From: Vibrio sp. ED004 | GTDB lineage: Bacteria; Pseudomonadota; Gammaproteobacteria; Enterobacterales; Vibrionaceae | NCBI RefSeq assembly: GCF_023206395.1 | Contig: NZ_CP066149.1 | Location: forward strand, 3,286,001 to 3,350,000 | Length of the DNA stretch: 64,000 bases | Direction of reading: 5' to 3' | Shown here: positions 60,272-64,000 of the stretch, piece after piece | How the letters are laid out: the number at the start of each line of letters is the position of its first letter | Position numbering within the stretch: the stretch's first letter is position 1 | Notes under the pieces: model-generated | What the model saw: only the letters and a program-made list of their open reading frames with translations | What the model was told of the DNA's origin: nothing | Database searches by the model: none | Program-made: the position numbers and the translations under genes

Positions 60272-61174
60272 ATGAAGAAGTTATCTAAAAACCTTTTATC
60301 AAGAACCGCGCTTTTAGGAACAATGAGTTTAGGCGCTATGCTAGCTGCATCGGGTGTTGTCTCTGCAGCGGATTTAAGCATCACTCATTACAATCCGGGC
60401 GAAAATGCAATATTCCCAGCAACCTCTGTACTGGTTTCGGGAGAGAAAGAAGTGATTCTGTTTGATGCACAATTTAGTGTCGCAGACGGGCAAAAGCTGG
60501 TGGAGCAAATCAAAGCGACTGGCAAAGAGCTATCGATGGTTTATATCAGCAGCGGTGACCCAGATTTTTACTTTGGCTTAGAACCGATTGTAGCGGCATT
60601 TCCAAACGTCGAGGTTGTTGCCAGTGAAGCAGTTGTTGCACATATCAAGCGCACTAAAGATGCCAAGCTCGAATATTGGGGGCCAATTTTAGAAGACAAC
60701 GCACCGTCTAAAGTTATTGTGCCAACCGTTCTTAACGACACCACGCTAAGTATTGAAGGTGAAACCATCGAGGTGAGAGAAATCAATACACACCAAGCTT
60801 ACTTATGGATTCCGTCTGAGAAAACTGTGTTTGGTGGTGTGTCGGTTTATAGTGGCGTGCATGTATGGATGGCAGATACCGCATCGAAAGAGATTCGTAG
60901 CCAGTGGTCACAATCTTTAGAACGCATGAAAGCACTTGAGCCTGAGGTGGTGATTCCAGGTCACTACTTAGGTGAGATGCCAACGGGTACAAATGGCGTT
61001 CAATTTACATTGGATTACGTTGCTGACATCGAAGATGCGCTGGCAAGTACAAGTAAGCCAACGTCTGTTGATATCAGTGATTACATGAAGAAAGCATACC
61101 CACAATTTAAGGCGACGGAAGGCGATCTAGAACTGGGTGCCAAAGTGCTAAGCGGTGAGATGGAATGGCACTAA
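60272..61174 (+). CDS. Exported metallo-beta-lactamase-fold protein lacking the usual HxHxDH
   Basis: 300 residues with a signal peptide (MSLGAMLAASGVVSAAD). MBL fold (NPGENAIFPATSVLVSGEKE, EVILFDAQFSVADGQKL). The canonical Zn motif HxHxDH is replaced by SGDPDF in VYISSGDPDFYFGLE; the distal GHYLG remains. Either a single-metal or non-catalytic variant. A target for the divergent LysR regulator. Confidence 0.8.
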   Translation: MKKLSKNLLSRTALLGTMSLGAMLAASGVVSAADLSITHYNPGENAIFPATSVLVSGEKEVILFDAQFSVADGQKLVEQIKATGKELSMVYISSGDPDFYFGLEPIVAAFPNVEVVASEAVVAHIKRTKDAKLEYWGPILEDNAPSKVIVPTVLNDTTLSIEGETIEVREINTHQAYLWIPSEKTVFGGVSVYSGVHVWMADTASKEIRSQWSQSLERMKALEPEVVIPGHYLGEMPTGTNGVQFTLDYVADIEDALASTSKPTSVDISDYMKKAYPQFKATEGDLELGAKVLSGEMEWH

Positions 61175-61458: not shown

Positions 61459-62271
61459 TTGAAAATCGAACCTATTACCCCTCACATCGGTGCTCGTATT
61501 CATGGAGTCGATCTCGCTACATGCAGCGTGACTGAACTTGATGAGGTTTATCAGGCGCTTCTAACTCATCAAGTGATTTTTCTCGATGATCAAACCCTTT
61601 CGCCACAACAGCATTTGATGATTGCAGAGCGGTTTGGACAACTTGAACCAGCACATCCGTTTTTTCCTCGCGTCGAACATGTGCCTCAGGTCAGTGTGAT
61701 AGAAACAACGCGTGGCAATGCTCCGATGGAAAGCTATTGGCATACGGATTTAACATGGCGTGAATTGCCATCGAAAGCTTCTCTGTTGCATGCTCAGCAT
61801 GTACCCAGCGTGGGAGGGGACACGATTTGGTGTTCGATGACAGCTGTGTTTGAATCGTTAGATGAAGATATGAAAGCAAAACTGAGAGGCTTATCGGCGA
61901 CCCATTCGCTGGTCGCGTTTGAGGGTATAGAGTCGGATCAGATTGAGCTTGATTGGCATAAGTCGTTAATAAAAACGGCTCAGGAAAATCCGCCAGTGAT
62001 TCACTCTGTTGTTCAAATTCATCCAGAAACCGGTAAAGAAACACTCTATATCAATGAACAGTTTACGCGCTATATCAATGAGCTCGACCGTCAAGAGAGT
62101 GATGCTTTACTCTGCCAATTATTTGAAGTTGCACGACGCCCTGAGTTTCAAGTTCGTTTCAAATGGGACAAAGGCTCAATGGCGATCTGGGATAACAGGG
62201 TAACGCAGCATTACGCGGTGATAGATTACGGCGATACGCCAAGGAAAATGCACAGAGTGACGGTGACCTAG
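61459..62271 (+). CDS. TauD/TfdA-family alpha-ketoglutarate dioxygenase
   Basis: 270 residues. Fe(II) ligands HTD in ESYWHTDLTWRE (95-97) and the distal His in VTQHYAVIDYG; the Arg of PRKMHR binds 2-oxoglutarate. N-terminus KIEPITPHIGARIHGVDL is typical. The only plausible start is TTG 61459 with a weak binding site. Substrate unknown (taurine-like or herbicide-like in relatives). Single gene before the ABC-F leader. Confidence 0.9.
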   Translation: MKIEPITPHIGARIHGVDLATCSVTELDEVYQALLTHQVIFLDDQTLSPQQHLMIAERFGQLEPAHPFFPRVEHVPQVSVIETTRGNAPMESYWHTDLTWRELPSKASLLHAQHVPSVGGDTIWCSMTAVFESLDEDMKAKLRGLSATHSLVAFEGIESDQIELDWHKSLIKTAQENPPVIHSVVQIHPETGKETLYINEQFTRYINELDRQESDALLCQLFEVARRPEFQVRFKWDKGSMAIWDNRVTQHYAVIDYGDTPRKMHRVTVT

Positions 62272-62394
62272 CTTACGTAAGTTTAGGGTAAATTCAGGCT
62301 AAGCCGAATGCGGCTAAATACTTTGACTCATCGATTAATGTGATTTATTTTTAGCGCTAATGTTCAACTCAATACAAATATAAGGAGGATTTTT

Positions 62395-62475
62395 ATGAAA
62401 GTGTGTGAATTTAACTTTGCGCATATTTTTTGGTACGACCAAAACTCAAGTTTTAACACTATCGTGCTGCGATAA
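62395..62475 (+). CDS. Leader peptide upstream of ABC-F gene
   Basis: 26-codon ORF (MKVCEFNFAHIFWYDQ, then SSF and LR near the end) with a near-ideal binding site AAGGAGGA 6 bases upstream. It ends inside the loop of a 10-pair hairpin and lies 119 bases before the ABC-F start. ABC-F resistance genes are commonly induced by ribosome stalling on such leader peptides. FWY aromatic run and W are plausible stall determinants. Proposed, not shown. Confidence 0.6.
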   Translation: MKVCEFNFAHIFWYDQNSSFNTIVLR

Positions 62476-62594
62476 CCAAAACTTGAGCGAAGCATTAAAC
62501 ATAACCCTCAATAGAGTTTCTTCACTCTAGTTTACTTGGTTGTTGTCAGCGAATGACGACAGCGCTTTCTTGCGCTTGAAACTTGAGTAAACAA
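62445..62594 (+). promoter_or_regulatory. Alternative hairpins forming a possible ABC-F attenuator
   Basis: CTCAAGTTTT (62445-62454, leader codons 17-20) pairs perfectly with AAAACTTGAG at 62478-62487 and equally, over nine bases, with AAACTTGAG at 62579-62587, which includes the likely binding site of the ABC-F gene. Further hairpins: TATCG/CGATA in the first loop, TAGAGT/ACTCTA (62512-62529), GTTGTCA/TGACGAC (62542-62560) and AGCGC/GCGCT (62561-62576). Confidence 0.55.
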
Positions 62595-64000
62595 ATGACT
62601 ACATTAATATCTACATCATCTATTTCTTACGATCTAACATCATGCCGCTTATTTGATGGGCTTTCTTTCACCATTAAAAAGGGTGACCGCATTGGCCTAA
62701 TTGGCAGCAATGGGTGTGGAAAAAGCACCTTACTGCGTCTATTAAACAAAGACTTACCAGACTATGTTAGCAGTGTCTCATTCGCCTCTTATGCTGAAGT
62801 CGCGCTTATTGAGCAACATCTCCCTAAACGGCTGTTGACTATGTCGATGCTCGATTCCGTTGTCGATAACCTGCCAGCAGAGATACAACTCACTGAGCAA
62901 TGGCGTGCTCAAATCATCTTGTCTAATTTAGGCTTTGACGAAAGCTATTGGGAGCAGCCGATTGGCACCTTAAGTGGCGGTCAATACGCACGAGTACTGG
63001 TGGCAAGAGCCCTGATTGTCGAACCTGACGTTCTACTACTGGATGAACCGAGCAACCACTTAGATTTGCCAACCTTGCTTTGGTTAGAGCAATTTCTGAT
63101 GGATTGGAAGGGCACTTTTGTGATGGTGTCACATGACCAAAGGTTACTCGATCATGTAACCAACTGTACTTGGGTACTGCGTGATAAAAAACTGCAAACC
63201 TTTAGTCAAACCTGCACACAAGCAAGGAAGGCTTTAGAGGAGAAAGACCGAGCTGACGCTGAAAGGCAAGAGGCGGAACAAAAGGAGATTAACCGCATTG
63301 AAAAGAGTGCGCAGCGATTAGCTATTTGGGGCAGGGATTTCGACAACGAAGGCCTAGCACGCAAAGCCAAAAGCATGGAGAAACGTGCCGCAGGTTTACG
63401 AACGACCATGACGCGTTTGGATACGATTGAGCCATGGACACTAAGCCTATCCGGTGAGTCGATGAAAGCTAACCGCTTACTTGAACTAGCTTCGGTGCCA
63501 ATCTCAGCTACGCAAGATCAAGCGCCACTGTTTGAAGTTCTGTTCCAGCAGGTTAAGAGTGGTGACCGAGTCGCTATCTTAGGTAAGAACGGCGCAGGTA
63601 AGTCTTCATTGTTGAAAGTGCTGTGGGCAAGCTATCAAGCCTCTCAACTTGAAGATAATGGTTACTTCCATCCTCAAGCTGAAGTGGGTTATTACGACCA
63701 AAGCTTGAACCAACTGTGCGATGAACATTCTTTGATAGATTCGTTGTACCCGTTTTATCCGGTTTCACAGGAAGCCAGAAAAATGGCTTTGATCAGCGCT
63801 GGCTTTTCTTATGAAAGACACGATCAAAAGATCGCTGAACTGAGTGGTGGCGAGCGTTCCCGGCTATTGTTCGTCGGGCTATCTTTGGCTAAGTATCACT
63901 TCCTGTTGCTTGACGAACCAACGAACCACCTAGATATTGAAGGTAAGGAAGAGCTGGCTGATTGTTTAACTCGTTTTGAAGGCGGCCTGTTGCTGGTTAG
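62595..64000 (+). CDS. ABC-F family ribosome-associated ATPase (3' end outside window)
   Basis: 469 codons open to the edge of the window. Two ABC cassettes: Walker A GSNGCGKST, signature LSGGQ, Walker B LLLDEPSNHLDL, and second Walker A GKNGAGKSS, LSGGE, LLLDEPTNHLDI. The linker between (about 195-265) is a charged coiled coil with a WGRDFDNEGLARKAK tip. No membrane domain, so it is an ABC-F translation factor or ribosome-protection protein that rescues drug-stalled ribosomes. Not obviously EttA, Uup, YheS or YbiT. Confidence 0.88.
   Translation, partial: MTTLISTSSISYDLTSCRLFDGLSFTIKKGDRIGLIGSNGCGKSTLLRLLNKDLPDYVSSVSFASYAEVALIEQHLPKRLLTMSMLDSVVDNLPAEIQLTEQWRAQIILSNLGFDESYWEQPIGTLSGGQYARVLVARALIVEPDVLLLDEPSNHLDLPTLLWLEQFLMDWKGTFVMVSHDQRLLDHVTNCTWVLRDKKLQTFSQTCTQARKALEEKDRADAERQEAEQKEINRIEKSAQRLAIWGRDFDNEGLARKAKSMEKRAAGLRTTMTRLDTIEPWTLSLSGESMKANRLLELASVPISATQDQAPLFEVLFQQVKSGDRVAILGKNGAGKSSLLKVLWASYQASQLEDNGYFHPQAEVGYYDQSLNQLCDEHSLIDSLYPFYPVSQEARKMALISAGFSYERHDQKIAELSGGERSRLLFVGLSLAKYHFLLLDEPTNHLDIEGKEELADCLTRFEGGLLLV

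Follow-up and report, generated by a model that had tools for sequence, protein, structure and literature searches.

The ABC-F gene of Vibrio sp. ED004 that closes the window (the whole 64,000-nucleotide stretch of DNA analysed here) is preceded by a short leader ORF and by four complementary RNA segments which, as judged from their sequences, stand in the order of the ermC regulatory region, with pairings 1:2 and 3:4 corresponding to the off state and pairing 2:3 to the on state. We consider it likely that this region is a translational attenuator of ermC logic, switched by a stalled ribosome and placed in front of an ABC-F gene. The original prediction, made from the letters of the window, had proposed attenuator logic, which is upheld by the mutually exclusive segments and by a folding model, both of which fit an ermC-type switch. 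Every element that it described was found at its place, and its interpretation is partly supported: the kind of mechanism was recognized correctly, but not all of its details.

The promoter, leader, segments, hairpins and ABC-F gene described here lie on the forward (+) strand. The leader ORF (MKVCEFNFAHIFWYDQNSSFNTIVLR) comprises 26 codons and a TAA stop (62395..62475) and is preceded by the Shine-Dalgarno sequence AAGGAGG (62382..62388); both the 26-codon ORF and the near-ideal binding site claimed for it are in place. The ABC-F gene, recognized by protein family searches, begins with the ATG at 62595 and has 588 codons in the genome, the window cutting it off at its end (62595..64000). A possible sigma-70 promoter for the leader transcript (TTGACT-17-TATTTT, 62323..62351) comes from a consensus scan, which returned 2 such sites in a 501-base stretch against 1.4 expected. 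Further upstream, the window encodes a Vmh-family metallo-beta-lactamase-fold hydrolase (60272-61174; 467 bits, above the curated cut-off of 430), followed by a taurine-dioxygenase-like gene (61459-62271; 290 bits, below the cut-off of 313). Beyond the window, the first ORF of at least 130 codons to follow the ABC-F gene (L204 2355-3218) has as its product a regulator of the AraC type that carries a GyrI-like small-molecule domain.

Segment 1 (CTCAAGTTTT, 62445..62454) lies within codons 17-20 of the leader and is the exact complement of AAAACTTGAG (62478-62487), the core of segment 2 (62465..62492), which runs across the last leader codons and the stop. Nine bases of this core (AAACTTGAG, 62479-62487) recur exactly 100 bases downstream at 62579-62587, in segment 4 (62579..62592), which covers the ABC-F ribosome binding site (RBS) and was recognized by sequence and duplex formation. 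The claimed pairing of segment 1 with 62478-62487, and the nine-base copy, could thus both be located exactly. Segment 3 (62520..62550), which the original prediction did not contain, emerged from the minimum-energy fold and from duplex calculations as complementary both to 62465-62492, over about 25 bp, and to 62579-62592. It is overlapped by a local hairpin (GTTGTTGTCA/TGACGACAGC, 62539..62563) that was flagged as terminator-like, with 5 T in the next 8 bases, and a small hairpin seen in the fold, GCGC-TTTCTT-GCGC (62562..62575), directly precedes segment 4; hairpins resembling the latter are visible by eye in the alignment of relatives. The fold energy of RNA 62382-62620 is -63.1 kcal/mol, compared with -44.9 kcal/mol (sd 4.2) in 200 dinucleotide shuffles, none of which folded as well (z -4.32). 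The 10-bp perfect stem with the nine-base third copy, a pattern defined after seeing the sequence, arose in none of 20000 dinucleotide shuffles, while the stem alone arose in 321. The leader observation is correct and exceeds chance. In Rfam, no fitting family was found for the leader region, the sole match being a sub-threshold snoRNA at E = 1.

An orthologue of the ABC-F gene is present in 70 of 227 Vibrio genomes (protein query, E 1e-80), in 47 of 394 genomes sampled from the order (18 of 114 genera, with f6, f8, f10 and f25 as the families besides f19) and in 47 of 198 genomes of family f19 (32 of 154 genera). Family f19 is by inference Enterobacteriaceae-type, because named homologues include Buttiauxella and because the leader peptide in front of a Klebsiella pneumoniae ABC-F gene is identical to that of the f19 genome G1091. 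Among 369 genomes drawn from the class, no orthologue was found beyond the window's own genome, and 5,426 E. coli genomes gave no blastn match for the leader or the gene of an f19 orthologue. Homologues, all less than 60% identical, also occur in 51 plasmid records, 43 of them typed non-mobilizable. One record titled as a Klebsiella plasmid (L201, CP125156.1) measures 5.37 Mb and carries malic enzyme, and is probably a chromosome labelled as plasmid.

By sequence comparison, the leader is conserved far beyond the ED004 genome. It precedes the ABC-F gene in 141 of the 143 orthologues that could be examined, i.e. 108 upstream regions of the main listing plus those of 20 and 15 further genomes, the gene without a start in G148 being set aside. 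The 141 comprise 103 of the 108 that were parsed, G484, G146, G508, G541, 20 of the 20, 13 of the 15, and L188. AGGAGG-like sites stand upstream of the leaders in the main listing (108 upstream regions); this listing and those of the 20 and 15 further genomes demanded an SD-like motif, whereas the parse that yielded 103 of 108 did not. Parsed leaders span 22-28 codons, 26-28 in most and 22 in one clade; in 8 of the 103 the parse appears to have begun at a second in-frame ATG, giving 24 or 25 codons where the listing shows a longer leader. Two leaders with a shifted end exceed this range. In G242 and L188 the leader end lies in another frame, and the first half and segment 1 are retained. Conservation of the ORF and of the pairings in related Vibrio, the lack of which the original prediction had named as evidence against itself, was accordingly observed. 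Its remark that such an attenuator would be unusual here fared less well, with a leader before nearly every orthologue and an antibiotic-sensing leader, toiL, described in E. coli (PMC12121999).

A leader-end pattern occurs in 55 of 223 Vibrio genomes, and 54 of its 57 listed places are at the start of an ABC-F gene, one of them a disrupted copy in G146. That genome has two copies of the region, of which one combines an intact leader with a broken ABC-F frame and the other shows the reverse; the two copies (L160, L161) are on different contigs and may reflect a duplication, a strain mixture or an assembly error. Leaders without the gene, considered at G084:C1, G133 and G181, were discarded as chance-like, since the three places do not agree in their letters and a control with the pattern reversed likewise produced 2 matches. 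The two exceptions among the orthologues, G493 and G991 (ABC-F identity 42-43%), have no such leader upstream. In G991 an MFS transporter gene ends directly at the start of the ABC-F gene or slightly within it. This locus (L203 16-3506), with its leaderless ABC-F gene (43%) directly after the MFS exporter gene and a Cupin_8/JmjC-like protein before the exporter, calls to mind mefA-msrD or a natural-product cluster. Upstream of the leaderless gene of G493 (L162, 42%) an inverted repeat is followed by T-rich sequence, terminator-like by eye.

Evidence that the segments pair was sought in two ways. First, in 48 representatives sharing less than 90% identity, the energy of each segment pair within a genome was compared with that obtained when segments were exchanged between genomes, with 5000 permutations. 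Pairing 2:3 stood out, at -28.7 kcal/mol for own versus -24.6 kcal/mol for swapped segments (z -9.6, 0/5000), followed by 1:4 (z -6.3), 3:4 (z -4.1) and 1:2 (z -4.0), each likewise with 0/5000. Seven comparisons of segments with no expected interaction gave z values from -3.3 to +1.8, the lowest being that of the leader start with segment 4 (4/5000). Clade composition can therefore leak into this test; by itself it makes a strong case for 2:3 and 1:4 only, and for 1:2 and 3:4, each taken alone, a z near -4 is modest.

Second, in a plain MAFFT alignment, pairings 1:4 and 2:3 (with a 2-bp local helix) had 95.4% of cells paired, against 27-47% when the structure was slid along the alignment. The search for compensatory changes in orthologous 5' regions, proposed earlier as a check, returned 45 two-sided changes for this structure, against 12.9 in shuffles and 3-27 in slid versions, a count in which the structure is favoured over its slid versions because RNAalifold derived it from the same alignment. 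The corresponding paired fractions were 94.0% for 1:2 (16-42% slid) and 88.5% for 3:4 (16-65% slid). For 3:4 the pairs altered on both sides (2) were not in excess of shuffles (239/500), and one slid version had more two-sided changes, 23 versus 7; 3:4 is thus the weakest of the pairings by sequence covariation. RNAalifold found no 3:4 helix in the first MAFFT alignment because segment 3 was misaligned in several rows, and a block-wise test was therefore made. Its first percentages were inflated, since the places of segments 4 and 3 had been chosen for the best pairing with segments 1 and 2, respectively, and duplex and alignment counts are used here instead.

The clade of G508 and G541, with an ABC-F identity of 39-40% and a leader of 22 codons (MKLSQLAFARYLSNLR(P/I)QSAVN), is at the sequence level the clearest case of pairings being kept while segments are respelled. 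In G508 they are written in new letters, CAGTCCG/CGGACTG and GATGAAT/ATTCATC/GATGAAT, and the predicted duplexes in the two genomes amount to -20 and -26 kcal/mol for 1:2, -19 and -20 for 2:3, and -16 and -15 for 3:4, but to only about -5.5 kcal/mol for 1:4. The claimed choice of segment 1 between segments 2 and 4 thus stands as an alternative pairing, while the scheme built on it was incomplete: it left out 62520-62550, and 1:4 is lost in this most divergent clade, where 1:2, 2:3 and 3:4 are kept. The same clade speaks against the idea that the leader merely couples translation or stabilizes the mRNA, the alternative pairings being of no regulatory use. Mutually exclusive pairings are each maintained and have been rebuilt with new letters in the divergent clade, and we hold this explanation to be extremely unlikely.

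The leader ORF appears to be constrained in two ways. Of the 79 distinct leader DNAs all but that of G242 were counted (78), with positions numbered from the end. Codons 9-13 (AHIFW in the window, 62419..62433) carry a conserved motif, [A/P/S]-[R/H]-x-F-[G/A/W/S], whose amino acids are kept while synonymous codons vary and which we regard as a putative stall motif. A, P or S stands at position 9 in 76 leaders, with all four alanine codons in use, and R or H at position 10 in 61; at position 12, 65 leaders have F, using both F codons, and 10 have Y; and 74 carry G, A, W or S at position 13. Among closely related pairs, which are not independent of each other, 283 of 461 substitutions in codons 2-16 fall at third positions, 236 being synonymous and 225 not. 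Codons 17-26, on the other hand, look conserved as nucleotides, and the last leader codon is CGA in 77 of 78. Because of this difference, the first half of the leader seems to be kept for the peptide and the second half for the pairings. The G508/G541 clade retains A9-R10-x-L12-S13 despite its respelled segments. Counted from the first base of codon 13, segment 1 begins 14 bases further downstream, and the leading edge of a ribosome with codon 13 in its P site would, going by the footprint, stand approximately at the start of segment 1. A 30S toeprint has been placed 16 bases past the A with which the start codon begins (PMC9226507).

The effect of ribosome position was modelled by folding the 48 representatives with the bases covered by a ribosome barred from pairing, as far as 12 before and 15 after the first P-site base. 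The readout was the energy needed to open the start region of the ABC-F gene in equilibrium folds without kinetics or protein. With no ribosome, opening costs 8.1 kcal/mol on average. With the P site at codons 8-12 the mean is 7.7-8.4 kcal/mol, and the cost falls by more than 1 kcal/mol in 6-14 of the 48; at codon 13 the mean is 6.4, and at codons 15-19 about 4.5-4.8 kcal/mol. Over P-site codons 14-22 the cost is lower by 2.6-3.6 kcal/mol on average, the mean change being -3.3 kcal/mol at codon 15 and +1.7 at codon 26, and at codon 26 and the stop it reaches 9.7-9.8 kcal/mol, above the ribosome-free value. A drop of more than 1 kcal/mol occurs in 39 of the 48 at codon 16 and in 40 at codon 17, with 8 showing none even there. 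Mean unpaired probability, as an alternative measure, gave the same shape with a smaller amplitude, and by this measure codons before 8 change little. In the model, opening and closing of the ABC-F start would hence follow ribosome position, and the claim that a stalled ribosome frees this start agrees with the drop in cost when segment 1 is covered; the stall window given for it, codons 10-16, has to be moved, as the model opens from P-site codon 13 or 14 to codon 22.

Random scrambling of the segments in the model produced the behavior that an ermC-type switch predicts. With segment 1 or 3 scrambled, the start was more open (5.2 and 5.4 versus 8.1 kcal/mol), and with segment 2 scrambled and the ribosome at codon 15, opening cost 6.6 versus 4.8 kcal/mol and was higher in 42 of 48. 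These results bear on the two-state scheme in which segment 1 chooses between segments 2 and 4 and its melting frees the start. Such a scheme would account for the pairing and covariation of 1:4 in most clades, but in the divergent clade 1:4 is worth only about -5.5 kcal/mol against -15 to -16 kcal/mol for 3:4. Moreover, in the model a scrambled segment 3 derepresses about as strongly as a scrambled segment 1, and a scrambled segment 2 impairs opening under the stalled ribosome, all of which makes the two-state scheme very improbable.

Intrinsic termination was considered as the mode of control and rejected, there being no conserved terminator among the 48 spacers: at least 6 T in the 8 bases after a stem were found in 1 spacer and exactly 5 in 9, the window's own included. 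Like the leader ORF, the segments with their conservation and covariation, and the motif, this lack of a conserved terminator can be read directly from the DNA. It follows that control of the ABC-F gene by the leader is probably translational. An amino-acid attenuator responding to charged tRNA, as in biosynthetic operons, might be suspected from the Ser found at codon 18 in 77 of 78 distinct leaders, a position at which a halt opens the start. This was nevertheless rejected, the leader having neither a run of one amino acid nor a conserved terminator and the gene not being biosynthetic. In addition, the CTCAAG sequence is in another frame in G571, where it reads Ala-Gln-Asp, and the divergent clade has neither CTCAAG in segment 1 nor Ser at codon 18; the constraint at codon 18 therefore looks to be on the RNA, and we judge amino-acid sensing highly improbable.

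We thus return to the stall-switched attenuator, for which the following course of events can be envisaged. As long as the leader is translated freely, or is not translated, segments 1:2 and 3:4 would be paired (or 1:4 around 2:3) and the RBS in segment 4 would be closed. Should a ribosome halt with its P site at about codons 13-15, just past the [A/P/S]-[R/H]-x-F-[G/A/W/S] motif, segment 1 would be covered, segment 2 would pair with segment 3 over about 25 bp, and segment 4 would be released so that ABC-F could be made. A ribosome that proceeded to the leader stop would close the gate again. The halt would most likely come from a ribosome-targeting agent that acts on elongation in a nascent-chain-dependent manner, and the ABC-F protein, probably PAF1, would most likely relieve the inducing inhibition. 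Translation of the leader and stalling on it, the inducer and the function of the ABC-F protein are the parts of this course that we infer.

In ermC, pairings 1:2 and 3:4 alternate with 2:3, and the motif of the ermCL peptide is IFVI. The properties expected of a system of this type can be compared one by one with those of the present leader. A leader ORF with its own Shine-Dalgarno sequence stands before the regulated gene (141 of 143) and shows coding-type substitutions; alternation of 1:2 and 3:4 with 2:3, the RBS lying in segment 4, is indicated by energies, covariation and the divergent clade; and in the folding model, and there only, the RBS is opened by a ribosome on segment 1 and not by one at the stop. 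The likeness to ermC/ermCL thus includes a leader ORF and stall-dependent refolding that exposes the Shine-Dalgarno sequence of the next gene at the level of translation, as described in PMC10219788 and PMC12121999; the differences are the ABC-F product, another peptide, Gram-negative hosts and the extra 1:4 pairing in most clades. With vmlR, cplR and lsaA it shares a uORF before an ABC-F gene and, for vmlR and cplR, alternative RNA structures; their uORFs are described as 3-4 codons long, with a proposed stall just after initiation, and vmlR and cplR have an intrinsic terminator (PMC9226507, PMC10201436), whereas the leader here has 26-28 codons in most genomes, a mid-ORF motif and no conserved terminator. 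The msrD gene likewise encodes a resistance ABC-F protein behind a leader peptide, MsrDL, with a nascent-chain-dependent halt, but is described as controlled by transcription attenuation through a hexapeptide, MYLIFM, halted at its stop codon (PMC10314930); the leader here is longer and probably translational in its action, and the modelled ribosome at the stop closes the start instead of opening it. Finally, toiL of the E. coli topAI operon is an antibiotic-sensing uORF of a Gram-negative bacterium that keeps a downstream RBS blocked through its pairing, but it is reported to form a single hairpin over its entire length, which halts at various positions can open, in a toxin-antitoxin operon (PMC12121999), unlike the position-specific four-segment switch before an ABC-F gene proposed here.

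These comparisons also bear on the inducer. In PMC10201436, leaders of ABC-F genes for lincosamide- and pleuromutilin-type drugs are ORFs of 3-4 codons, thought to be halted right after initiation, and macrolides, phenicols and oxazolidinones are named as the nascent-chain-dependent class. Sensing of lincosamides, pleuromutilins or streptogramins, as first proposed, is thus not favoured, the known leaders having 3-4 codons and an early ribosome leaving the start closed on average in the model. With its length and its mid-ORF motif, the leader fits an elongation stall that depends on context better than it fits lincosamides or pleuromutilins, which suggests that the trigger would be a nascent-chain-dependent agent (macrolide, phenicol, oxazolidinone class), another agent, or intrinsic stalling.

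What the ABC-F protein does was approached through its relatives. The best NCBIfam model is that of ribosomal-protection-like ABC-F proteins, at 333.8 bits for the full protein and 314.3 bits for the part in the window, short of the cut-off of 380. Since a Vibrio protein of the PRK10636 family (L024 1042-3042), presumably the YheS family and housekeeping, passes this cut-off with 429 bits, the model is not specific and the score settles nothing. Among solved structures the nearest are YheS and VmlR, with 265 and 206 bits by single sequence and 272 and 261 bits by profile. In a comparison of 3 homologues with five PRK10636-like loci, for one of which the family was checked, the first domain has 27 residues fewer between Walker A and the signature, which suggests a reduced Arm, and the linker has 151 residues against 142-146, being only 5-9 longer. 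Among resistance ABC-F proteins a reduced Arm and an extended linker are frequent but not universal. The Gram-positive loci taken for linker-length comparison had no recognizable ABC-F frame. The AlphaFold model (mean pLDDT 86.5) places linker helices at 207-248 and 252-271 with a short tip between them. Murina et al. described PAF1 as confined to Proteobacteria, present in Vibrio, Klebsiella and relatives and not in Escherichia, and predicted it, on the grounds of its phylogeny and its patchy distribution, to be a resistance factor (PMC6723617). The ABC-F protein here is probably of the PAF1 subfamily, because it has the same distribution (Vibrio and Klebsiella-type genera, with no match in the E. 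coli genomes); the word 'leader' is absent from the main text of PMC6723617. Neither a described PAF1 leader nor a tested PAF1 function was seen among the matches listed in open-licence PubMed Central, and in PMC2659441, on Shewanella cis-RNAs, the accessible text contains neither 'ABC transporter' nor 'ATP-binding'. A resistance role of the protein is predicted, and homology does not show resistance.

The same RNA switch could conceivably serve a signal other than an antibiotic, namely intrinsic or stress stalling which a housekeeping-like ABC-F protein relieves and by which it sets its own level. YheS being the top match among solved structures, and the linker being close in length to that of PRK10636-like loci, are in keeping with this, as are ABC-F proteins described to rescue ribosomes on difficult templates (PMC12421871) and the finding that ectopic MsrD suppresses induction via its own leader (PMC10314930). 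On the other hand, the gene is patchy in the genus (70/227), which Murina et al. took as a sign of a resistance factor (PMC6723617); its homologues occur in plasmid records, though 43 of the 51 are typed non-mobilizable; and the Arm region appears shortened, a loss that is most drastic in ARE1 and ARE2 (PMC6723617). We consider such a housekeeping role unlikely, if by no means negligible. The reading that we put forward, tentatively, is that of an order-wide Gram-negative family of arrest peptides with a motif at codons 9-13 which would sense a ribosome-directed agent or a nascent-chain event that the known leaders do not match and, through an ermC-type switch that is doubly locked in most clades, would control PAF1, and so provide intrinsic inducible ribosome protection in Vibrio, Klebsiella-type and related bacteria.

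Taken together, the leader would bring to the Gammaproteobacteria a case of ermC logic that is widely conserved, along with a candidate for a new arrest motif. It would also document, unusually, how an RNA switch came to be spelled in new letters while its peptide motif was retained. A conserved stall-dependent leader would be independent evidence that the PAF1 gene answers to ribosome inhibition, and a compound that halts the ribosome on this leader would tell what the PAF1 protein is for.
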